A stretch of 64,000 nt of DNA from Haloterrigena sp. KLK7 (GCF_037914945.1 NZ_CP149788.1:248001-312000), one strand, 5' to 3'. Positions 24,656-41,233 are shown, counted from the stretch's first letter. Notes: a model not told the origin generated them from the letters alone. A program made the numbers and translations.

Positions 24656-26377
24656 CTACGGAGTTGTCTGAGACAGCGCTTGCTGCTCGAGCGATGGGCC
24701 CATCTGCACCGCCCGGTTCTTCCCGGGAGATCCTGTCGCTGTGAGCGCAGCTGCCAGCTGTAGCCACAGACCTACTCTGGGATGATCGAGTAACCGTCCC
24801 GGGTCTAGCGGCCAAAACAGTACACTCCCTATCGGATCGTCGGGGTTGCCGTACCGATCTGCTGGAAGAAGTATGTCGAGGAGTGCGTCAGCTGCGTCAC
24901 GTAGCGTCTGGCTCTCCTCGAGGCTGGTCGGAACAACGGGCTCGCGACGTTCGGTGGCCGTTCGGAACGACAACGCTAGTCGATACCCGCTCTCGTCGAC
25001 ACGAACGAGATCGAGTGCCTCGAGCCGGTTGCGATAGTTCCGGATGGTCCGTGCTGAGACGCCCACTCGGTCGGCGAGGTCCCGCTGTGACAGGCGGTTT
25101 TCGGCTGTGAGAAGCATCTGAACGAGTCGGCCAACTGTCGGTGGGAGATCGGAGAGCAACTGTTCGGACTCGAGCGTTCCCAACGCGTAGCGGAGTTCGT
25201 CCGGTCGGAGTTCTCGGCTCTCGTCTTCGCTAGCGAGTTCCTGGAGTGCTCAAGCAGCAGCGTACGGCGAGCTGACTACCGCCTGGAGGAGCGAGATGCT
25301 GTCTCGAGTCGGTCGCAGGTTTTTCGACTCTAGGATCCGCATTGTAGTCGCTGCGTAGCCTGTTCGATCGACCATAGAGAGGGGGGCGTGGACAGCAAAT
25401 TCGGGAGCGTCATCAGCGACCGCTGCTGGCCTCTCGAGCGCTTCCTCCAGAGATGGGTGAAGAGGATGGACATCCTCCCTACGAACGACAACAGAGCCGA
25501 TGAGCGTCCCCAGCGGGTTATCTGCATCAACAGTCGGTGTGAGTGCGGTGCGACGCTTTTCCTCACGAGACTCGAACAGTTGTCGGTACGAGGCGAACAC
25601 ACCGTATTTCCCCTGAATCGCGGCCGAAATACTGAGAGATGTTGCTTCGCTCTCGAGTTGGTTCACGGCGTGAGCGACGTCGAATGGACTTCCGGTGAGC
25701 GCGTGGAGAACTGAGACAGCCTCGCGAGTCGGTCGGAGATTGTTGTCTTCGAGTAGTCGGGTCACCGTCGTCGCGATCTCCGGGCGGCCAGCGTCGGTGA
25801 CAGTAATCGGGACGGTGATCTCCGGCGCATCTTCGAGGACGTCACCTGGCGACGAGAGCCGCATCTCGAGCGGGTCCCGGATCCGGTGGACGTCTGGGCC
25901 CCGGAACACGAACGATCTGATCAACTCGCCATGTGGATCCGCAGCGTCGACCGTCGGTGAGAGTGACGGCTCGCCGGCGTCAGTTTCGAGGATGTGATGG
26001 TAGGGAGCGAATACACCGTATTTCGATTGGATGAGTGCCGATCGAGTGATTGACTCGGCAAGCCCCTCAAGGTCGGCGCTCTCGCAGCTACTGGGGACGC
26101 GAACGTCACAAACGACATCGATTCCGGTAGCATCGAGCAAATGTATGATCGAGCCCGCGAGACCGTGACTCGAGCGCATGATCTCGGCGCCGAGTGGGGA
26201 CGTGTCGTCGCCGGTGGCTCGAGAGAGCTTAGTCGTCAACTCCTCGAGCATTTCGCCCCACTCGGCGAACGTTGTACGGAGGGTCTCGGGGTCGTTGAGA
26301 GCGGCCTCGGAGAGTCCATCGATGTTTCGAGCGCCCCGAAGGATCGCAGGCGGCTCATCGAGTGCGTTGACTACCTG
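24656..26377 (-). pseudogene. Winged-helix repeat protein split by an in-frame TGA and 5'-truncated
   Basis: Two frames separated by a single TGA (at about 25250-25252) are in register and read as one product of about 570 residues. The first part has an N-terminal helical region (LSEAALNDPETLRTTF) and two homologous units of about 140 residues; each contains SAxIQxKYGVFAxY, a TVDAxxPxGxLIxS stretch and a final NLRPTRxxxSxLxA. After the stop comes a winged helix (RLSQRDLADRVGVSARTIRN) and a conserved tail ending in RVGLWLQLAAALTATGS. The N-terminus is cut by the transposase remnant at about 26350. C-terminal copies recur at 34580 and 40766. I do not recognise the family. Confidence 0.75.
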
Positions 26378-26734
26378 CAAGTATCATTTCGTGTGGTGTC
26401 CGAAGTACCGCCACCCTGTCCTCAGCGCGGTGGAAGATGATGTGCGAGAGTTGTTTGGTGAGACTGCCGACCACTTCGGGCACGAGATTCTGGCGTTAGA
26501 AATCGCGGACGATCACGTACACCTGTTTGTCCAATCCGATCCGAAGCACAGTCCTGCCGACATTGCTCGGCAGTCAAGTCGTACTCAGGAAAGCACTTGC
26601 TGGAGCGTTACCCAGAGATCCGGGAGTCGTATCTCTGGGGTGGTGGGTTCTGGAAGGTTGGGTACTACGTGGGGACGATGGGCGCGGTGTCGGAGGAGGT
26701 GGTTGAACGGTATATCGAGAAGACAGAACATTAG
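26350..26734 (+). pseudogene. IS200-type TnpA transposase remnant, frameshifted
   Basis: The forward strand encodes TTCKYHFVWCPKYRHPVLS, then EIADDHVHLFVQSDPKHSPADI, which carries the HxH of Y1 transposases. Near 26574 the frame shifts: the continuing KSYSGKHLLERYPEIRESYL and YYVGTMGAVSEEVVERYIEKTEH are one base out of register, consistent with a single-base deletion. The first codons are also missing. TAG is at 26732-26734. Expected to be inactive. Confidence 0.85.
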
Positions 26735-26795: not shown

Positions 26796-27983
26796 TTAGA
26801 TCACGCCGTCGCTTTGGAGTTTTTCGATCTCGTCCTCCGAGAGACCTAGGCGATCGCGGTAAATCTCACGGTTGTCCTCACCCTTTCGTGGAGCGGGCTC
26901 GATATCGGGCATTTCCGATCCCGAGAGGCGAATCGGAGTCCCGGGAACGCGGATCGGCCCTTCGGTAGGGTGGTCGACCTCGACGACCATTTCTCGCTCC
27001 TCGAGGTGGGGATCGTGAATCACCTCCTCGACGCTCTGGACCGACCCGCAGGGGACCCCAGCCGCCGAAAGGGTCGATACGATCTCCTCGCGAGTGCGCT
27101 CTCGAGTCCACTCCTCGATGGCCGCATCGATCGTTTCCATGTGTTCGACGCGATCGACGTTGGTCGCAAACCGGTCGTCATCTCGCAGGTCCTCGCGACT
27201 GATTGCTTTGCACAGGGTTTGCCAGTGGTCGTCGGACGTACAGAGGATCGCCACGTAGCCGTCGTCGGCCTCGTAGGCGTTGTAGGGTGCTTTTGCGAGG
27301 CTGCTGTGACGGTTGCCCGTTCGAGAAGGCACGTCAGCGTCGGCGTAGTAGTTCGCCAGCTGGGACATTAGGGAGGGGTACACCGCGTCCTGCATGCTTG
27401 CCTCGACGAACTGGCCCTCGCCGGTTTGTTCGCGCTGATAGAGCGCCGCCATAACGCCGGCCGCGAGGTGAATCCCACCGAGGAAGTCGCCGGGTGCGAT
27501 ACCAGTCTTGGTCGGCGGGTCTTCTGGATTGCCGGTCGTATCCATGACGCCGCTTTCGGCCTGAACGATGAGGTCCATCGCCAGCCGGTCGCTCTTGGGG
27601 CCGTCCTCGCCAAAGCCGCTTCCGTGAGCGTAGATCAGTTCGGAATTGATCTCCGAGAGGGTCTCGTATCCGAGGCCGAACTCCTCCATCGTTCCCGGTG
27701 CGAAGTTCTCGACAAGGACGTCCGCGTCCCGAACGAGGTCTTTGAATAGTTCCTTCCCCCGCTCGTCTTTGAGGTTGAGTGTGATCCCGTCTTTCGTGGA
27801 GTTGAGCATCACGAGCTCGGGCGGTTCGCCCTCGTCGACGCGAGAGCGGAGGGGTTCTCCGAACGGCGGTTCGACCTTCGTTACGTCGGCTCCCAGATAC
27901 GAGAGCATCAACGAACTGTACGCGCCGTTGTAGATCTGTCCAAGATCGATAACGTCGACGCCGTCTAATGCCTGTTGATTCAT
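26796..27983 (-). CDS. Family III CoA-transferase (CaiB/BaiF type)
   Basis: The 395-residue cytoplasmic enzyme should move CoA between carboxylates. It shows ALDGVDVIDLGQIYNG, GADVTKVEPPFGEPLR, VLVENFAPGTMEEFGLGYE and, at about 163-180, APGDFLGGIHLAAGVMAAL, where Asp166 fits the catalytic Asp of formyl-CoA transferase. The region around EGQFVEASMQDAVY is also typical. Length is normal for the family. It is the last gene of a minus-strand cluster with an acylating aldehyde dehydrogenase and a TctABC transporter, so its substrate is probably the imported acid. The substrate is not identifiable from sequence alone. Confidence 0.9.
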   Translation of the reverse strand: MNQQALDGVDVIDLGQIYNGAYSSLMLSYLGADVTKVEPPFGEPLRSRVDEGEPPELVMLNSTKDGITLNLKDERGKELFKDLVRDADVLVENFAPGTMEEFGLGYETLSEINSELIYAHGSGFGEDGPKSDRLAMDLIVQAESGVMDTTGNPEDPPTKTGIAPGDFLGGIHLAAGVMAALYQREQTGEGQFVEASMQDAVYPSLMSQLANYYADADVPSRTGNRHSSLAKAPYNAYEADDGYVAILCTSDDHWQTLCKAISREDLRDDDRFATNVDRVEHMETIDAAIEEWTRERTREEIVSTLSAAGVPCGSVQSVEEVIHDPHLEEREMVVEVDHPTEGPIRVPGTPIRLSGSEMPDIEPAPRKGEDNREIYRDRLGLSEDEIEKLQSDGVI

Positions 27984-28028
27984 ATATCAGTAATGTTGGA
28001 AATCAATTGTTGGGCCTGACTGGGTCGG

Positions 28029-29462
28029 TTAGCGGCCGTACTTCTCGTGATACGAACCGAATAGTTCGTCCTCGGTCGGTTCGTCGGGTTCGACGGTTTC
28101 GGCGACCGTCGTCGTGTTGAGGAAGTGGGTGTAATTGATGTTCTCGTCGGTTTGGTTACCGCCCCACGTGCCGGCTCCCATCGAGAGTGTGAAGTTCAAC
28201 CCGTTATCGAAGCTTCCGCCGTTGCCGTAACACTGGGGCTGGTTGATCAACAGCCGGGCGACGTCGATCTCGTGGCCGATGCGTTCCCGGTGGTCGTCGT
28301 CGGTCGTATGTAATCCACAGGAGTGGCCGCTGCCCTCGAAGTCGAGGATCTCGCTTGTCGTCTCCAAGGCATCGTCGAAGTCGGCGACGTCGTAGAGGGT
28401 GAGCACGACCGAGAGCTTCTCGCCCGAGAGCGGGTACTCCGCACCGATTCCCTGCCCTTCGACCATGAAGAAGTCGGCCTCGTGAGCCTCGGGCGGGAGG
28501 TCGGCGGCCGCCGCGATCTCCGCCGGCGGTTGCGCGGTGACCGCCGAGGAGAGCGACCCGTGACCATCTGGGAACATCGTTTCCTCGAGGCGCTCGCGTT
28601 CGTCCTCATCGCAGAGATACCCACCCTGGGCTTCGAGGGCGGCGACGGCGTCGTCGTAGACCGACCCGACGATCACTGCGGCGTTATCGCTTGAGCAACT
28701 GGTCGCGTAGTCGAACGTCTTGCTCTTCGCGATGCGTTCGGCAGCCGCCTCGAGATCGGCCGTCGCGTCGACGACCGAGACGACGTTCCCTTCGCCCACG
28801 CAGTAGTTGGGCGTCCCCGAGCGCTCGCCGCGTCGGACGTTGTTCTCGGAGCCGGTCACTTGCAGCAGGTCACAGCGGTCCATCAGCGCGTACGTTTTCT
28901 CCTTTTCGACGGGCGCCGGCAGCATCTGGACGAGGTCCCGCGGCGCGCCGACCGACTCGAGTTCGTCGCGGACGTATTCGACGACCAGTTCGCACGTCGA
29001 GAGACCGGCCGGCGACGGCGAGACGACGATCGCGTTGCGACCTTTCACCGCCATCATCGCGAGGTTCGCGGGCGTCGTCCCCGGATTGGTGGAGGGGACG
29101 ACCGCACCGACGACGCCGACGGGTTTCGCGATTTCGGTGAGTCCCGCCTCCTCGTCCCGATCGATCACGCCGACCGACGGCTCCCCGAGCAGATCGTCCA
29201 GCGTACCCGCGGTCTTTCGGCGCTTTTTCGTTATTTTGTCCTCGACGTTGCCGAAGCCGGTGTCTCTGACTGCTACCTCTGATATCTCTCGGGCCCGTTC
29301 GTCCTCGTAGATCGCCCAAGCGACCGCCTGGACGAGTTCGTCGACCCGCTCTTGATCGTAGTCCGCGATCTCGTCCATCGCCGCTCGAGCGCGGTCGAGA
29401 CAGGCGTCGACGCCGTCCGCCGTCTCGGATGCCGATTCGACCTGTGAAGGGTTCGTTGTCAT
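28029..29462 (-). CDS. CoA-acylating aldehyde dehydrogenase (EutE/SauS-like)
   Basis: The 477-residue enzyme belongs to the acylating branch of the aldehyde dehydrogenase superfamily, which interconverts aldehyde, NAD(P)+ and CoA with acyl-CoA and NAD(P)H. It has GVVGAVVPSTNPGTTPANL (coenzyme region, about 116-134), VTGSENNVR near 202-210, and the catalytic Cys256 in YATSCSSDN. The canonical general-base Glu region is replaced, as in acylating forms. The TSCSSDN pattern recalls sulfoacetaldehyde and propionaldehyde acylating enzymes. It sits 45 bp upstream of the CoA-transferase gene in one direction. The aldehyde is unknown. Confidence 0.85.
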   Translation of the reverse strand: MTTNPSQVESASETADGVDACLDRARAAMDEIADYDQERVDELVQAVAWAIYEDERAREISEVAVRDTGFGNVEDKITKKRRKTAGTLDDLLGEPSVGVIDRDEEAGLTEIAKPVGVVGAVVPSTNPGTTPANLAMMAVKGRNAIVVSPSPAGLSTCELVVEYVRDELESVGAPRDLVQMLPAPVEKEKTYALMDRCDLLQVTGSENNVRRGERSGTPNYCVGEGNVVSVVDATADLEAAAERIAKSKTFDYATSCSSDNAAVIVGSVYDDAVAALEAQGGYLCDEDERERLEETMFPDGHGSLSSAVTAQPPAEIAAAADLPPEAHEADFFMVEGQGIGAEYPLSGEKLSVVLTLYDVADFDDALETTSEILDFEGSGHSCGLHTTDDDHRERIGHEIDVARLLINQPQCYGNGGSFDNGLNFTLSMGAGTWGGNQTDENINYTHFLNTTTVAETVEPDEPTEDELFGSYHEKYGR

Positions 29463-29531
29463 ACCGGACGTGGTCGATTCCCGCGGATAGCTATGTTGCC
29501 GGCATACTACACGCCGGCAGCCCTGGCCGTT

Positions 29532-31028
29532 TCAGTCCTTGACGACGGTGACGATCAGCGAGAGTGCGATGAGGATCAATAGACCGATCGCGATGTAGCT
29601 GTTGAAGAGGAAGGCCGTAACGCTCTCGCCGGTCAACAGCCAGCCGGTGACGAAGCCGGACTCGGCGATGTCCCCCAGAATGACTCCCAACACGAGGCTG
29701 ACGAGTGGATAGTCGTACTTGATGAACAGGATGCCGATCAGTCCGAAGATCAGCACGATATACAGATCGACGGTCGCGTTTCGCACCGCGAAGCCGCCGA
29801 CGATCGCGAGTACTGCCACCGCGGGGATGATGTAGCGAATCGGAATATACGCGAGCTTTCCGAAGTAACGCGACCCGGAAATCCCGTACACCAGGATCAG
29901 GACGTTCCCGATGAACAGCGAGAGGATCATCGCGTAGACGATCTCGCCCGACGCGTCGAACAGCCCGGGGCCCGGATTCAGTCCGTGGAGCGCAATCGCA
30001 CCCAACAGCGCCGCCGTCGAGCCGCTTCCCGGAATACCGAGGGTCAGCGTCGGGATCAGCGCACCGCCCTGCGTCGCGTTGTTGCTCGAGTCGGCCGCGA
30101 TGACGCCTTCGATGACGCCGGTGCCGAACCGGTCGGACAATTCGTCGCTGGCCCACCGCCTGGCCTCGTTGTACGAGACGAAGTTCGCCACGTCCGCGCC
30201 CGCGCCGGGCAGCGAGCCGACGAAGGTACCGATGAAAGCCCCTCGAAGGAACCCGACCGGGCGAGAAGCGACGGCTCGGGCGGCCTCGTACACCTCCGAC
30301 ATACCGCCCTCGACGTTTTCGTCGGCGGTGACGGTAGCGCCGCGGTGGGCGAGCCGGAACACTTCCGCGAGGACGAACAGTCCGATGAGCACGACGACGA
30401 AGTCGACGCCCTGAAGCAGCGTCGTCTGGCCGAACGTGGCCCGCGGCTGGGAGAGTTGCGGATCGTTACCGATCGTTCCGATCAGCAGTCCGAACAGGCC
30501 GGCCAAAAGTGCCTTCGAGAGCGACGCTCCCTTCGCGGCGGGGATGATCGTCAGGGCGAACACCGCGAGCAAAAACATCTCCGGCGGCCCGAAATTGAGG
30601 GCGAACTCGGAAATCGGCGGGGCGAAGACGAGGAGGAAGGCGGCCGCGATCAGCCCCGCGAGCCCGGAGACGATCGCGGAGACTGCCAGCGCGTAGACGG
30701 CCCGCCCCTGTTTCGTGAGTTCGTACCCGTCCCAGCAGGTGACGACCGATCCCGGCGCGCCGGGCGTATTAATGAGGATCGCCGGAATCGAACCGCCGTA
30801 CACCGCGCCGCCGTAGGCTGAGACCAGGAAGATCAACGCCGTCGTCGACTCGAACGGAATCGTAATCGGCGTAAACAGGATGATCGTCATCGTCGCAGAG
30901 AACCCGGGAATCGCGCCGAAAACGACGCCGATTGCGGTCCCCAGGAGGATCGCGAGGAGAACGTACGGGTTCGCGAGTACGCCGAGTCCGTCCGCTATCG
31001 TCGCGGGGAAGAGAAACGCCTCGATCAT
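29532..31028 (-). CDS. tctA: Tripartite tricarboxylate transporter large permease TctA
   Basis: The protein has about 498 residues from ATG at 31026-31028, with some twelve hydrophobic helices. TctA signatures include GVVFGAIPGFSATM, the loop PAILINTPGAPGSVVTCWDGY near 110-130 and a second half SLPGAGADVANFVSYNEARR followed by GGALIPTLTLGIPGSGSTA. These paired GxPG motifs are characteristic of the large membrane subunit. Its start overlaps the TctB stop by ATGA. It imports a carboxylate captured by the binding protein TctC; the particular substrate cannot be read from this subunit. Confidence 0.92.
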   Translation of the reverse strand: MIEAFLFPATIADGLGVLANPYVLLAILLGTAIGVVFGAIPGFSATMTIILFTPITIPFESTTALIFLVSAYGGAVYGGSIPAILINTPGAPGSVVTCWDGYELTKQGRAVYALAVSAIVSGLAGLIAAAFLLVFAPPISEFALNFGPPEMFLLAVFALTIIPAAKGASLSKALLAGLFGLLIGTIGNDPQLSQPRATFGQTTLLQGVDFVVVLIGLFVLAEVFRLAHRGATVTADENVEGGMSEVYEAARAVASRPVGFLRGAFIGTFVGSLPGAGADVANFVSYNEARRWASDELSDRFGTGVIEGVIAADSSNNATQGGALIPTLTLGIPGSGSTAALLGAIALHGLNPGPGLFDASGEIVYAMILSLFIGNVLILVYGISGSRYFGKLAYIPIRYIIPAVAVLAIVGGFAVRNATVDLYIVLIFGLIGILFIKYDYPLVSLVLGVILGDIAESGFVTGWLLTGESVTAFLFNSYIAIGLLILIALSLIVTVVKD

Positions 31029-31561
31029 ACCGGCACCCCCAGCCACTCGATGAACACGAACCAGAGGAGAAACGTGAACCCGATCGAATAGAGCGTCAGG
31101 GCGAACAGGCTCTCCTCGCCGAACAGGTATAGCGTGACCGCCAGATACCCGGTGGTGGCAATGAGGAACCCGATCGGCTCGAGAGCGACGATATAGACGG
31201 TCGTCAGTGCGACCAGCAACGCTGCGTTACGTACAGTGAACACCTGATCGTCTGATGTCGTCTCAGCCGCTGTATCGGGAGCGGGAGCGACCATTGCTAT
31301 TCCGAGCCCGGACTCGCCTCGGTCTCCGGACCCGTCGACTGAGACAGCCTGCTGGAAGACAGTCACGACGGCGAGCGCTGCCGTCATATACAGCAACGGG
31401 CCCGCGTACAGCATCGAGAGATCCGGCAACGTGTGAGTATCCCAGTAGTAAAACAGGCAAAACGCCAGTACGAGTCCCGGAAACAACAGTTCCCCTGTAT
31501 CGATCTCGAGCGTTCGTGAGCCGGCCGAGACGTTGACGACCGGCGGCGTAATATCCGTCAT
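31025..31561 (-). CDS. tctB: Tripartite tricarboxylate transporter small permease TctB
   Basis: The 178-residue protein from ATG at 31559-31561 has four hydrophobic helices, at about 23-40, 50-72, 115-135 and 140-172, separated by an acidic loop. That is the usual topology of the small TctB subunit, which is poorly conserved in sequence. Position between TctC and TctA, with a 4-bp overlap to TctA and 5 bp from TctC, makes the call firm. The frame extends upstream of this ATG, but only as Arg-rich antisense-like sequence, so the shorter start is chosen. Confidence 0.85.
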   Translation of the reverse strand: MTDITPPVVNVSAGSRTLEIDTGELLFPGLVLAFCLFYYWDTHTLPDLSMLYAGPLLYMTAALAVVTVFQQAVSVDGSGDRGESGLGIAMVAPAPDTAAETTSDDQVFTVRNAALLVALTTVYIVALEPIGFLIATTGYLAVTLYLFGEESLFALTLYSIGFTFLLWFVFIEWLGVPV

Positions 31562-31566
31562 GGCTG

Positions 31567-32592
31567 CTACTGGTCGTAGATGAAGTTCTCGATCACGTCG
31601 GCGTACTCCTTCATGAACTGAGCGGTGGCCTCGACTTCTCGCTTCGTCTCGTCGGGACCGCGATAGTCGATGATCTTGTCGAGGCCGCCCTGTTCTTCGG
31701 TTCGGGCCTGAAACGCATCGTTCTCGAATACTGCGGCGTAGGTCTCCGATAGCTCCTCGAACCGATCGGGATGTCGATCGCGAACGCCGCCGGGTAATAC
31801 GACGAGCTTCCACTGACCGAGGCCCTCGTCGACCAGCGGGATCTCTTCCAGACCGAGGTCACCGAAGGACGGCGCAGACGGCCACAGTTCCTGTTGCTCG
31901 GACGTGTGAGAGCCCAGAGCGGTCACGTCGCCGGCGTAGTCGGGGTTGAACGCCCACGGCTGGTTGACGCCGGCATCGATGTCGTCGGCGAGGACGGCCT
32001 GTCGGACGCCCGATCCGCCCCCCATATTGATGATCGTCAGATCGAGGTCGTAGGTCTCTTTGACGAGCAGCGCCGACAGCGCCGTATTCCCGATTGCTGC
32101 AGTGATTCCGACGGTCGCCTCGTTCTCGCGGGCGTACTCGATAAACCCCTCAAGGTCGTCGTACGGGCTATCGGGTGGCGCGAACCACATCGTCGGATCC
32201 CAGTGATGGGTTCCGAGATAGTCGAAGTCCCCGATTCTGTACGGGGCGTTCTGGAACAACCACGTCGCCTGCATTTGGGGCATGTTCCACATCGCAAGCG
32301 TGTAGCCGTCGGCGTCTGCGTTGTACAACTCTTCGCCCCCGACCTGTGTCGAACCGCCCGGGTGATTTTCGACGACGAACTCGGTGCCCAGTAGTTCGGA
32401 CCACGTCGGCGTCGTAACACGCATCGATCGGTCGGTACCGCCGCCCTGCGACCACGGCACGATCGCTCTGATCTGCGTTCCGTCGGACGTTCCCAGAATA
32501 CCCCGCGCCTGGGCGGTGTACGCCGCTGCGCCCGCCAATCCGACCGTTCCCGCCGCGATAAATTCTCGTCGACTAGTATTTTTTAGTGTCAT
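31567..32592 (-). CDS. tctC: TctC-type solute-binding protein with Tat signal
   Basis: The 341-residue protein begins MTLKNTSRREFIAAGTVG, a Tat signal typical of haloarchaeal exported binding proteins; no lipobox Cys is seen in the mature start. The Bug/TctC fold follows: IRAIVPWSQGGGTDRSMR, VVENHPGGSTQVGGEELY, then a conserved GNTALSALLVKE and NMGGGSGVRQAVL. It would capture a carboxylate outside the cell for TctAB. It is the first gene of the TctCBA-dehydrogenase-CoA-transferase cluster, so transcription probably starts in the 426-bp gap upstream. Confidence 0.9.
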   Translation of the reverse strand: MTLKNTSRREFIAAGTVGLAGAAAYTAQARGILGTSDGTQIRAIVPWSQGGGTDRSMRVTTPTWSELLGTEFVVENHPGGSTQVGGEELYNADADGYTLAMWNMPQMQATWLFQNAPYRIGDFDYLGTHHWDPTMWFAPPDSPYDDLEGFIEYARENEATVGITAAIGNTALSALLVKETYDLDLTIINMGGGSGVRQAVLADDIDAGVNQPWAFNPDYAGDVTALGSHTSEQQELWPSAPSFGDLGLEEIPLVDEGLGQWKLVVLPGGVRDRHPDRFEELSETYAAVFENDAFQARTEEQGGLDKIIDYRGPDETKREVEATAQFMKEYADVIENFIYDQ

Positions 32593-33018
32593 CGTTCGAT
32601 AGTGAAGCCGCCTTGGTCCGTTCCAGCTCGAAACCAGTTGCGGATGCGATTCGGTGCATCCCTATCTCGAGCCGGTCGTTCGATTCATCGATCCGCGGAC
32701 ACCACCGCTCTGTCACAATTGAGATCATTGGAATATCACCGGCGATTAAACGTCAACTCGAGCGTCGCATTCGACGATTCGGTTGTCGAAATGTGTCCTC
32801 GTCTACGTGTTATATCAAAAACCCATTCGGGGTTGCCTATTCGGCTTGCGACTGCAACTGACACCGCCGAATCACAGACCGTTATATCATCTAGACTTCA
32901 TTGAGGGTACTGTCACATAGAGATTCGTAGTACGATAACACATTGCACAATTGAGATCTGACGTGCATATTTCAAATGCAACCCGAGTATCTTTGTTCAC
33001 ACTAGCCACAGCTACCCC
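32593..33018. promoter_or_regulatory. Divergent promoter region between transporter cluster and aldo/keto reductase
   Basis: The 426-bp gap separates the minus-strand tctC start from the plus-strand reductase start. It becomes AT-richer toward 32900-33000, where promoter-like runs lie. I see no gene in it and cannot name an operator. Confidence 0.4.
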
Positions 33019-33996
33019 ATGGAGTACACGACGCTCGGATCGACAGGAATGCGCGTCAGTCGGCTCTGTCTCGGCTGCATGAGTTTCGGCGACCCCGACT
33101 GGCGCGACTGGGTTCTCGAGGAAGACGAAGGAAAAGAGATCATCGACCGGGCCATCGACCTCGGGATCAACTTCTTCGACACGGCGAACATGTATTCGCG
33201 GGGTGAGTCCGAGCGGATCCTTGGGAAGGCGCTCGAGGGGTACGACTCCGACTGGCCCGTCATCGCCACGAAGGCGTACATGGAGATGAATGAGGACAAT
33301 CCGAACGCCAGTGGACTGTCGCGGAAAGCGATCGAACAAGAACTCGCGAACAGCCTCGAGCGGCTCGGAATGGAGACGGTCGATCTCTACCAGATCCACC
33401 GGTGGGATTACGATACGCCGATCGAGGAGACGATGAGAGCGCTCGACGATGCCGTCCGTCGCGGGCAGGTCCGCTATCTCGGCGGCTCCTCGATGTGGGC
33501 CCACCAGTTCGCCGAGGCACTCCATACGAGCGACCGACTGGGACTCGACCGGTTCGTTACCATGCAGAACCACTACAATCTCGTCTACCGGGAGGAGGAA
33601 CGCGAGATGCTGCCGCTCTGTGAAAAGGAAGGGATCGGCGTGATGCCGTGGAGTCCGCTCGCCCGTGGCTATCTCGCTCGGCCTGCCGAGGATATCGACG
33701 CGACGGCTCGAGGCGAAACGGGTGAGAAACTGTACGAACACCCGTATCGTGACGGTGGCGGCCGTGAGATCAACGAACGAGTCGAGGAAATCGCTGAGAA
33801 CAAGGGAGTGACAATGGCACAAATCTCGTTGGCCTGGCTGTTACACAAAGATTGGGTCGACGCGCCGATAATCGGAACAACGAGCATTGAACATCTCGAA
33901 CAGGCTGTCGAAGCACTCGATATTTCGTTGTCCGAGAGCGATATTGAGTATCTCGAGGCGCCATACGAACCAGTACCAGTATCAGGTCACACATAG
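33019..33996 (+). CDS. Aldo/keto reductase
   Basis: The 325-residue TIM-barrel oxidoreductase has MEYTTLGSTGMRVSRLCLGCMSFG, then FFDTANMYSRGESERILGKAL with catalytic Asp and Tyr, ATKAYM with the catalytic Lys, and DLYQIHRWDYDTPIEETM with the His. IIGTTSIEHLEQAVEAL near the end binds NADP(H). All four catalytic residues are in place and length is normal. It is divergent from the TctCBA cluster and could reduce an aldehyde made by the acylating dehydrogenase, but that link is inference from position only. Confidence 0.92.
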   Translation: MEYTTLGSTGMRVSRLCLGCMSFGDPDWRDWVLEEDEGKEIIDRAIDLGINFFDTANMYSRGESERILGKALEGYDSDWPVIATKAYMEMNEDNPNASGLSRKAIEQELANSLERLGMETVDLYQIHRWDYDTPIEETMRALDDAVRRGQVRYLGGSSMWAHQFAEALHTSDRLGLDRFVTMQNHYNLVYREEEREMLPLCEKEGIGVMPWSPLARGYLARPAEDIDATARGETGEKLYEHPYRDGGGREINERVEEIAENKGVTMAQISLAWLLHKDWVDAPIIGTTSIEHLEQAVEALDISLSESDIEYLEAPYEPVPVSGHT

Positions 33997-34579: not shown

Positions 34580-35224
34580 CTACTTCCCGTCCGATGGGCG
34601 GCCAGAGACACGATGAAGCGCTTGCTGCTTAAGCGGTGGGCCCATCTGTACGGCTCGGTTGTTCTCGGTAGATCCTGTTGCTGTGAGCGCCGCTGCCAGC
34701 TGTAGCCACAGACCGACTCTGGGATGGTCGAGTAATCGTATTGGATCTGGTGGCCAGAACAGTACACTCCCTATCGGATCGTCGGGGTCGCCATATCGAT
34801 CTGGTGGAAGAAGTATGTCGAGGAGTGCGTCAGCTGCGTTACGTAGCGTCTGGCTCTCCTCGAGGCCGGTCGGAACAACGGGCTCGCGACGTTCGGTGGC
34901 CGTTCGGAACGACAACGCCAGTCGATACCCGCTCTCGTCGACACGAACGAGATCGAGTGCCTCGAGTCGGCCGTGATAGTTTCGGATTGTTCGTGCCGAC
35001 ACGTTTGCTTGGTCGGCGAGCTCACGCTGTGAGATCCGGCTCTCGGTGGTGAGAAGCGTGTGGATGATTCGACCAACGGCCGGTGGGAGGTCGGCAAGTA
35101 ACTGCTCGGGCTCGAGCGTACCCAGGGCATAGCGGAGTTCATCCAGTCGGAGTTCGCGGTGTTCGTCTTCGGGAGCGAATTCCACAGCTTGGATGCGGAG
35201 AACCCGCATTGTCAAGGACGTCAC
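34580..35224 (-). CDS. Winged-helix repeat-family protein, C-terminal copy 2
   Basis: The 214-residue product matches the C-terminal third of the gene split at 24656-26377, at about 90% DNA identity by eye over its main part. It has an N-terminal ELRLDELRYALGTLEPEQLL, a winged helix (RISQRELADQANVSARTIRN) and the tail DDPIGSVLFWPPDPIRLLDH. The two large repeat units of the family are absent, so it is either a 5'-truncated pseudogene or a stand-alone regulator starting at 35224 or 35209. It lacks a recognisable promoter. Family and role unknown. Confidence 0.65.
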   Translation of the reverse strand: MTSLTMRVLRIQAVEFAPEDEHRELRLDELRYALGTLEPEQLLADLPPAVGRIIHTLLTTESRISQRELADQANVSARTIRNYHGRLEALDLVRVDESGYRLALSFRTATERREPVVPTGLEESQTLRNAADALLDILLPPDRYGDPDDPIGSVLFWPPDPIRLLDHPRVGLWLQLAAALTATGSTENNRAVQMGPPLKQQALHRVSGRPSDGK

Positions 35225-40765: not shown

Positions 40766-41233
40766 TCAAGTGCAAAGCGCTTGCTGCTTAAGCGGTGGGC
40801 CCATCTGCACCGCCTGGTTGTTCTCGGTGGAGTCTGTCGCTGTGAGCGCAGCTGCCAGCTGTAGCCACAGACCGACTCTGGGATGATCGAGTAACCGTCC
40901 CGGATCTGGTGGAAGAAGTATGTCGAGGAGTGCGTCGGCAGCATCGAGGAGCGTCTGGTTCTCCTCGAGGCCGGTCGGAACAAGAGGCTCGCGACGTTCG
41001 GTGGCCGTTCGGAACGACAACGCTAGTCGATATCCGCTCTCGTCGACACGAATGAGATCGAGCGCCTCGAGTCGGTCGTGATAGTTTCGGATTGTTCGTG
41101 CCGACACGTTTGCTTGGTCAGCGAACTCACGCTGCGAAAGACGACACTCAGTTGTGAGAAGCGTGTGGATGATTCGACCAACGGCCGGTAAGAGATCGGA
41201 AAGTAAAGGACTCTCAAGCGGTTCGAGGGACAC
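40766..41233 (-). CDS. Winged-helix repeat-family protein, C-terminal copy 3
   Basis: The 155-residue product is a third copy of the winged-helix/tail module (RLSQREFADQANVSARTIRN, then LALSFRTATERREPLVPTGL). Compared with the 34580 copy it lacks 18 residues between two PPD segments, an in-frame 54-bp deletion. The N-terminal part upstream of the winged helix is shorter and starts MSLEPLESPLLSDLLP. It is probably a truncated relic of a larger gene but the frame is intact, so expression is possible. Function unknown. Confidence 0.6.
   Translation of the reverse strand: MSLEPLESPLLSDLLPAVGRIIHTLLTTECRLSQREFADQANVSARTIRNYHDRLEALDLIRVDESGYRLALSFRTATERREPLVPTGLEENQTLLDAADALLDILLPPDPGRLLDHPRVGLWLQLAAALTATDSTENNQAVQMGPPLKQQALCT

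Follow-up and report, generated by a model that had tools for sequence, protein, structure and literature searches.

Background

Sulfoacetate is widespread as a product of the breakdown of taurine and plant sulfolipid sugars. Its described catabolic routes are bacterial and activate it with one of two types of ligase. In the SauST(U) system of Cupriavidus necator H16 (Weinitschke et al. 2010, as cited in PMC12625764), the MFS importer SauU is combined with the ligase SauT, and sulfoacetate is converted through sulfoacetyl-CoA to sulfoacetaldehyde by SauS. The SauSCD-SauXYZ system of Bilophila wadsworthia (Liu et al. 2023, as cited in PMC12625764 and PMC12890257) combines a tripartite tricarboxylate transporter (TTT) and SauS with the ADP-forming ligase SauCD; the sulfoacetaldehyde formed from sulfoacetate is reduced to isethionate (PMC12890257), by another enzyme than the aldo/keto reductase of the locus described below, and isethionate is cleaved by the radical enzyme IseG. 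Hybrid clusters have also been described, and SauXYZ, a TTT transporter, is named there as the putative importer of sulfoacetate (PMC12625764, 2025); the oxidative direction is described for SqwD and SqwKL of a sulfoglycolytic pathway (PMC12890257; PMC11659671).

Among the bacterial sulfoacetate clusters examined here, plasmids of Azospirillum and Indioceanicola carry TctCBA-SauS-SauCD-molybdoenzyme together with Xsc, a Rhodococcus plasmid carries SauS-SauCD-MFS with Xsc, phosphotransacetylase and TauE, and plasmids of Ruegeria and Sulfitobacter carry Tct, SauS and SauT; in one SauS-SauT-Tct cluster an SDR oxidoreductase is adjacent. No CoA-transferase was found in these clusters, which have a SauT or SauCD ligase instead. 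The haloarchaeal locus described below shares with C. necator H16 (in the cited summary of that system) the predicted conversion of sulfoacetate to sulfoacetaldehyde via SauS, but with SauT replaced by a family III CoA-transferase and SauU by a TTT transporter. With B. wadsworthia, as summarised in the same sources, it shares the pairing of a TTT transporter with SauS, whereas both SauCD and IseG are lacking. The nearest gene layout is that of the Azospirillum and Indioceanicola clusters (SauS 52% identical), which however have SauCD and Xsc where the window has a CoA-transferase and no Xsc. In the literature searched, which covers the primary sulfoacetate work incompletely, neither a sulfoacetate route using a CoA-transferase nor haloarchaeal routes for sulfoacetaldehyde, organosulfonates or isethionate were found.

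Gene layout and conservation of the locus

The window, i.e. the whole stretch of 64,000 nucleotides analysed, corresponds to positions 248001-312000 of a 397-kb contig (C2) in a 4.6-Mb haloarchaeal genome of five contigs. Six ORFs, all intact, occupy 26796-33996 in the ORF reading of the window, and they are listed here with their surroundings:

26796-27983, minus strand: CoA-transferase, family III (CaiB/Frc-type); PF02515, 408.7 bits
28029-29462, minus strand: sauS, acylating sulfoacetaldehyde dehydrogenase by family membership; NF047625, 675.6 bits
29532-31028, minus strand: tctA, large membrane subunit of the transporter; 457.5 bits to PF01970 over the whole profile
31025-31570, minus strand: tctB, small membrane subunit of the transporter; PF07331, 48.6 bits (cut-off 29.1)
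31567-32592, minus strand: tctC (sauX-like), solute-binding protein of the tripartite tricarboxylate transporter; PF03401, 62.4 bits (cut-off 27)
32593-33018, no strand: divergent intergenic region with the presumed promoters of tctC and the aldo/keto reductase gene; inside the 83%-identity block in common with G241
33019-33996, plus strand: divergent aldo/keto reductase (AKR); PF00248, 247.5 bits
24675-25241, minus strand: HTH-protein gene, left copy (context, not pathway); direct repeat with 34617-35183
34617-35183, minus strand: HTH-protein gene, right copy (context, not pathway); direct repeat with 24675-25241

The first-pass annotation had named a set of six genes here (TctCBA, an acylating dehydrogenase, a CoA-transferase and an aldo/keto reductase), and the set is real, with intact ORFs at or near the places where it had put them and families confirmed by Pfam. 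It had also read one pathway from the gene order; the order holds for the five minus-strand genes, and the AKR gene is divergent. The order tctC-tctB-tctA-dehydrogenase-CoA-transferase is operon-like in layout, with 4-base overlaps of tctC with tctB and of tctB with tctA, followed by gaps of 69 bases before the dehydrogenase and 45 bases before the transferase. Since the AKR gene is encoded on the opposite (plus) strand, with 426 bases in between, it falls outside this operon, on a separate transcript. Scans of the window for sigma-70 promoters and terminators, with models unsuited to archaeal promoters, gave fewer matches than in shuffles.

A genome-context search, proposed along with the first-pass annotation, found the five genes together in three genera, and blastn matched them as a block. 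In G241 (same family, other genus), one alignment covers exactly 26796-33996 at 83% identity, including the intergenic region, while in G225 (other family) the alignment covers 26798-32592, that is, the five minus-strand genes without the AKR gene, at 81% identity. Purifying selection is seen in each of the six genes, with dN/dS of 0.27-0.29 for tctB and 0.09-0.15 for the others. The cluster is a conserved unit and not a chance assembly, five or six genes being kept together in the three genera; gene content, gene order, family membership and co-occurrence were observed directly, as was the purifying selection.

The two HTH-protein gene copies bracket the cluster as direct repeats of 86% identity, 9942 bases apart, and an IS200-type transposase remnant, truncated and frame-shifted, lies at 26378-26733, immediately downstream of the CoA-transferase gene. 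SauS is absent from the five other sampled genomes of the window's genus. Together, the bracketing repeats, the adjoining remnant and the congeners without SauS suggest that the cluster was gained by lateral acquisition. A third copy of the HTH-protein gene is located in the window at 40775-41202.

The acylating dehydrogenase

The window dehydrogenase, which Pfam places among the aldehyde dehydrogenases, scored 675.6 bits against NF047625 (profile positions 5-464 of 464), the NCBI curated family for the acylating sulfoacetaldehyde dehydrogenase SauS, for which the cut-off is 600, and is thus SauS by family membership. Its TSCSSD motif contains Cys256, which is aligned with the TSCSS(D/E) motif of Xsc- and ligase-linked SauS and is the presumed nucleophile. 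In ten SauS proteins whose genes are linked to Xsc or a ligase, 123 positions do not vary, and the window protein keeps 120 of them.

A second haloarchaeal clade of SauS-like proteins (57-63% identity) differs at T84, N133, S351, F418 and M428, with Glu replacing Met at 428, whereas at each of these sites the window SauS carries the sulfoacetate-type residue. The loci of this second clade (L012, L049, L050, L051, L052, L054 and L095) mostly lie beside genes for a propionyl-CoA-synthase-like fusion and an iron alcohol dehydrogenase, with carboxyltransferase genes in some genomes. The fusion, of about 1800 aa, joins acyl-CoA ligase, enoyl-CoA hydratase and reductase parts, and methylmalonyl-CoA mutase genes are present in some genomes. 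Because the second clade adjoins propionyl-CoA-synthase-like genes, the dehydrogenase family appears to take other substrates too, and the Glu that this clade conserves at window position 428 points to a non-acidic aldehyde, perhaps 3-hydroxypropionaldehyde. In the SauS tree, the bacterial Sau-linked proteins form a supported clade; the haloarchaeal CoA-transferase-linked proteins and the propionyl-linked clade are not cleanly separated, and the proteins from three of the four Xsc-less cluster genomes form a supported clade of their own.

The CoA-transferase and the transporter

The window transferase contains the CoA_transf_3 domain at full length (PF02515 positions 1-366 of 366), and Asp137, in the AMDLIVQA motif, is invariant across 13 homologs; as in Frc, it is the presumed catalytic residue. 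The protein scored below every curated NCBIfam equivalog cut-off. The nearest curated family, NF041294 (haloarchaeal succinyl-CoA:mesaconate CoA-transferase), gave 310.9 bits against a cut-off of 700, and by sequence the transferase is without a characterised close relative.

SauS was found above its cut-off in 7 of 391 genomes of the haloarchaeal class. When the same 391 genomes were searched with the transferase, the seven top matches (67-100% identity) came from these very genomes, followed by matches of 61-65%; full overlap of two sets of seven has a chance of about 4e-15 under independence, a figure that ignores relatedness among genomes, which span several families. With Halomarina halobia (L011/G391) added, SauS and the transferase occur in eight genomes, each of which has TctCBA linked; the distance in G324 from SauS to the transferase and Tct genes is about 12 kb. 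By tblastn, no homolog of SauT, SauC or SauD was detected in the window, and neither SauT nor SauCD was seen in the haloarchaeal clusters. One further genome, G331, has TctCBA and a transferase (63%) without SauS, inside a polysaccharide gene region (L084 4570-9826).

TctA, TctB and TctC are all present in the window, as adjacent overlapping genes with three Pfam matches above cut-off; a 2018 review (PMC5812351), citing a 2003 survey, reports that TctB and TctC homologs had not been observed in archaea. The tctC product carries a twin-arginine-like leader (SRREFI), and tctC was found in all eight clusters with SauS and the transferase (55-86% identity). Six genomes of one Natrialbaceae genus, and G064, also have TctCBA orthologs (TctC 72-78%) but neither SauS nor the transferase, and these orthologs are closer to the window's transporter than the Xsc-linked ones; for this reason the transporter alone is no proof of substrate. 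Most of the SauS-less TctCBA loci examined adjoin a PAPS-reductase-family gene (L096, L097, L098, L101, L102 and L103), with a TauE-family homolog in the same 20-kb stretch in some of them, which fits a sulfur-containing ligand, yet points to a transporter with other partners as well. The G064 tctC (L101 9478-10501) is split across two reading frames, and this copy may be broken.

Relatives with Xsc

Four of the eight cluster genomes have Xsc, with TIGR03457 scores of 700.5 (H. halobia), 672 (G324), 671 (G029) and 702 bits (G339); relative to the cut-off of 676.4, H. halobia and G339 are above, and G324 and G029 just below. In H. halobia, G029 and G324, Xsc and Pta genes are located within or beside the SauS cluster, and in G339 Xsc is on a different contig from the SauS cluster, next to acetate kinase. 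A gene for a Thi4-type thiazole synthase, whose function is connected with the thiamine cofactor of Xsc, was seen in G029 close to the cluster and in G339 close to Xsc. A molybdopterin oxidoreductase is paired with an Fe-S/NrfD protein in G324, with a TauE-family gene nearby; the Fe-S/NrfD protein is present in 4/4 of the Xsc genomes and 0/4 of the Xsc-less cluster genomes, and by its context the pair is a candidate sulfite dehydrogenase. These four genomes share TctCBA, the CoA-transferase and SauS with the window genome but, unlike it, add Xsc with Pta or acetate kinase, and by gene content theirs is a full set for sulfoacetate degradation. Separately, two haloarchaeal clusters without SauS (L104 7281-11663 and L105 7551-11932) combine an iron alcohol dehydrogenase with Xsc and Pta, one of them with additional genes for Thi4 and an MFS transporter, and look like archaeal isethionate degradation clusters.

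The window genome is without Xsc (best TIGR03457 match 282.3 bits vs 676.4), and Xsc was likewise not found in G241, G225 or G255. A hidden Xsc elsewhere was considered and rejected: the best match is far below the cut-off, and the one lying 36 kb off on the same replicon fits acetolactate-synthase-like families better. The thiamine-diphosphate enzyme encoded on this replicon beside an IclR regulator (L061 8584-10407, G000:C2) is acetolactate-synthase-like, not Xsc. No homolog of the Fe-S/NrfD protein, the candidate sulfite dehydrogenase subunit, was detected in the window genome, G241, G225 or G255. Because Xsc and the Fe-S/NrfD complex are both absent, sulfoacetaldehyde would have to go elsewhere in the window genome. 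Glycyl-radical enzymes of the isethionate sulfolyase (IseG) family were sought through PF02901, which is absent from all eight cluster genomes, with controls working.

Proposed pathway and alternatives

The family assignments and gene context make it quite probable that the five-gene module serves haloarchaeal uptake of sulfoacetate and its conversion to sulfoacetaldehyde. From sequence and context we infer every reaction, substrate and direction of the module, and its CoA donor, as follows. TctCBA would take up sulfoacetate, and the CoA-transferase would shift CoA to the sulfoacetate carboxylate, with an acyl-CoA of the host (acetyl-CoA or succinyl-CoA) as donor, to give sulfoacetyl-CoA. With NAD(P)H, SauS would reduce this to sulfoacetaldehyde. 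In the Xsc-bearing relatives, Xsc would then cleave sulfoacetaldehyde with phosphate to acetyl phosphate and sulfite, Pta or acetate kinase would regain acetyl-CoA or ATP, and the molybdo-iron-sulfur complex would probably oxidise the sulfite. Acetyl-CoA would be the natural donor in these genomes, being the end product via Pta; succinyl-CoA is equally possible.

The earlier outline of the pathway (import of a carboxylate, CoA transfer to it and reduction of the acyl-CoA to an aldehyde) is supported by the families, the SauS match and the gene sets of the relatives. So is the remark that a family III transferase takes the place of the ligase known from the sulfoacetate route, the window having no SauT or SauCD homolog. 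The transferase had been taken to set the cluster apart from sulfoacetate metabolism, a view that is revised here, as relatives pair the same transferase with SauS, Xsc and Pta. The substrate, left unnamed at that point, can now be proposed: sulfoacetate is the clear favourite, because the dehydrogenase passes the SauS cut-off and the relatives' set of transferase, Tct and SauS sits with Xsc and Pta.

The first-pass annotation had ended the pathway in an alcohol. In the window genome, the neighbouring AKR might reduce sulfoacetaldehyde to isethionate, which would be excreted or used by other genes; this variant, which overlaps the reading preferred here, is a guess from the sequence and is put forward as a tentative one. 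The AKR gene and the intergenic region are within the block shared with G241, the AKR gene has a dN/dS of 0.09, B. wadsworthia makes isethionate from sulfoacetaldehyde, and an SDR oxidoreductase adjoins the bacterial SauS-SauT-Tct cluster mentioned above. Against this, the gene is linked in 2/8 clusters (the window and, at 88%, G241) and absent from the other six, close paralogs are found in 7/8 cluster genomes (including 75-81% identical ones in the window genome), and its best NCBIfam matches are far under cut-off. The AKR was therefore rejected as a fixed pathway part, given the six clusters without it and the common paralogs; the linkage and paralogs leave the reduction to an alcohol weak. 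In G255 a Zn-alcohol dehydrogenase gene adjoins the cluster (L048), an arrangement seen once that gives the idea of a substitute reductase.

It is unlikely that the module has been re-purposed in the window lineage, with malonate or a C3-C4 acid imported, given CoA by transfer, reduced to a semialdehyde and then by the AKR to a hydroxy acid. Four genomes lack Xsc, three of them with SauS in a clade of their own, and the sister enzyme clade is linked to the iron alcohol dehydrogenase and the propionyl-CoA-synthase-like fusion; the window SauS, however, is above the family cut-off with sulfoacetate-type residues at the clade-separating sites, and it and the transferase share 71-77% identity with the Xsc-linked copies in relatives. 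Still less likely is operation in the oxidative direction, from sulfoacetaldehyde through sulfoacetyl-CoA to sulfoacetate, with the transferase saving the thioester as acetyl-CoA or succinyl-CoA. SqwD and SqwKL provide a precedent, CoA transfer is reversible and the window genome has no Xsc to drain sulfoacetaldehyde, but the binding-protein-dependent transporter in the operon implies uptake, no recognised sulfoacetaldehyde-producing gene is present in the block, and the Xsc-linked relatives require the reductive direction. That the window copy is a functionless, decaying remnant of a former Xsc pathway, as the missing Xsc and the adjoining IS200-type remnant might hint, is very improbable given intact ORFs throughout, dN/dS of 0.09-0.29 and the retention of five or six linked genes in three genera.

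Conclusions

Relative to the known pathway, the module proposed here for sulfoacetate would be a variant, new in its archaeal setting, in the replacement of the ligase by a CoA-transferase and in its Xsc-less form, and it is likely novel to the literature. A further possibility, considerably more speculative, is an Xsc-independent use of sulfoacetate by haloarchaea in which CoA transfer replaces ATP, sulfoacetaldehyde goes to isethionate or to an unrecognised desulfonation, and the cassette moves between archaeal families. If the sulfoacetate reading is true, the transferase would represent a third activation step for sulfoacetate, with no direct ATP cost, and the first archaeal version among the literature searched; it would also assign a substrate to one group of archaeal tripartite tricarboxylate transporters, and would provide a defined gene set for organosulfonate turnover in salt lakes.
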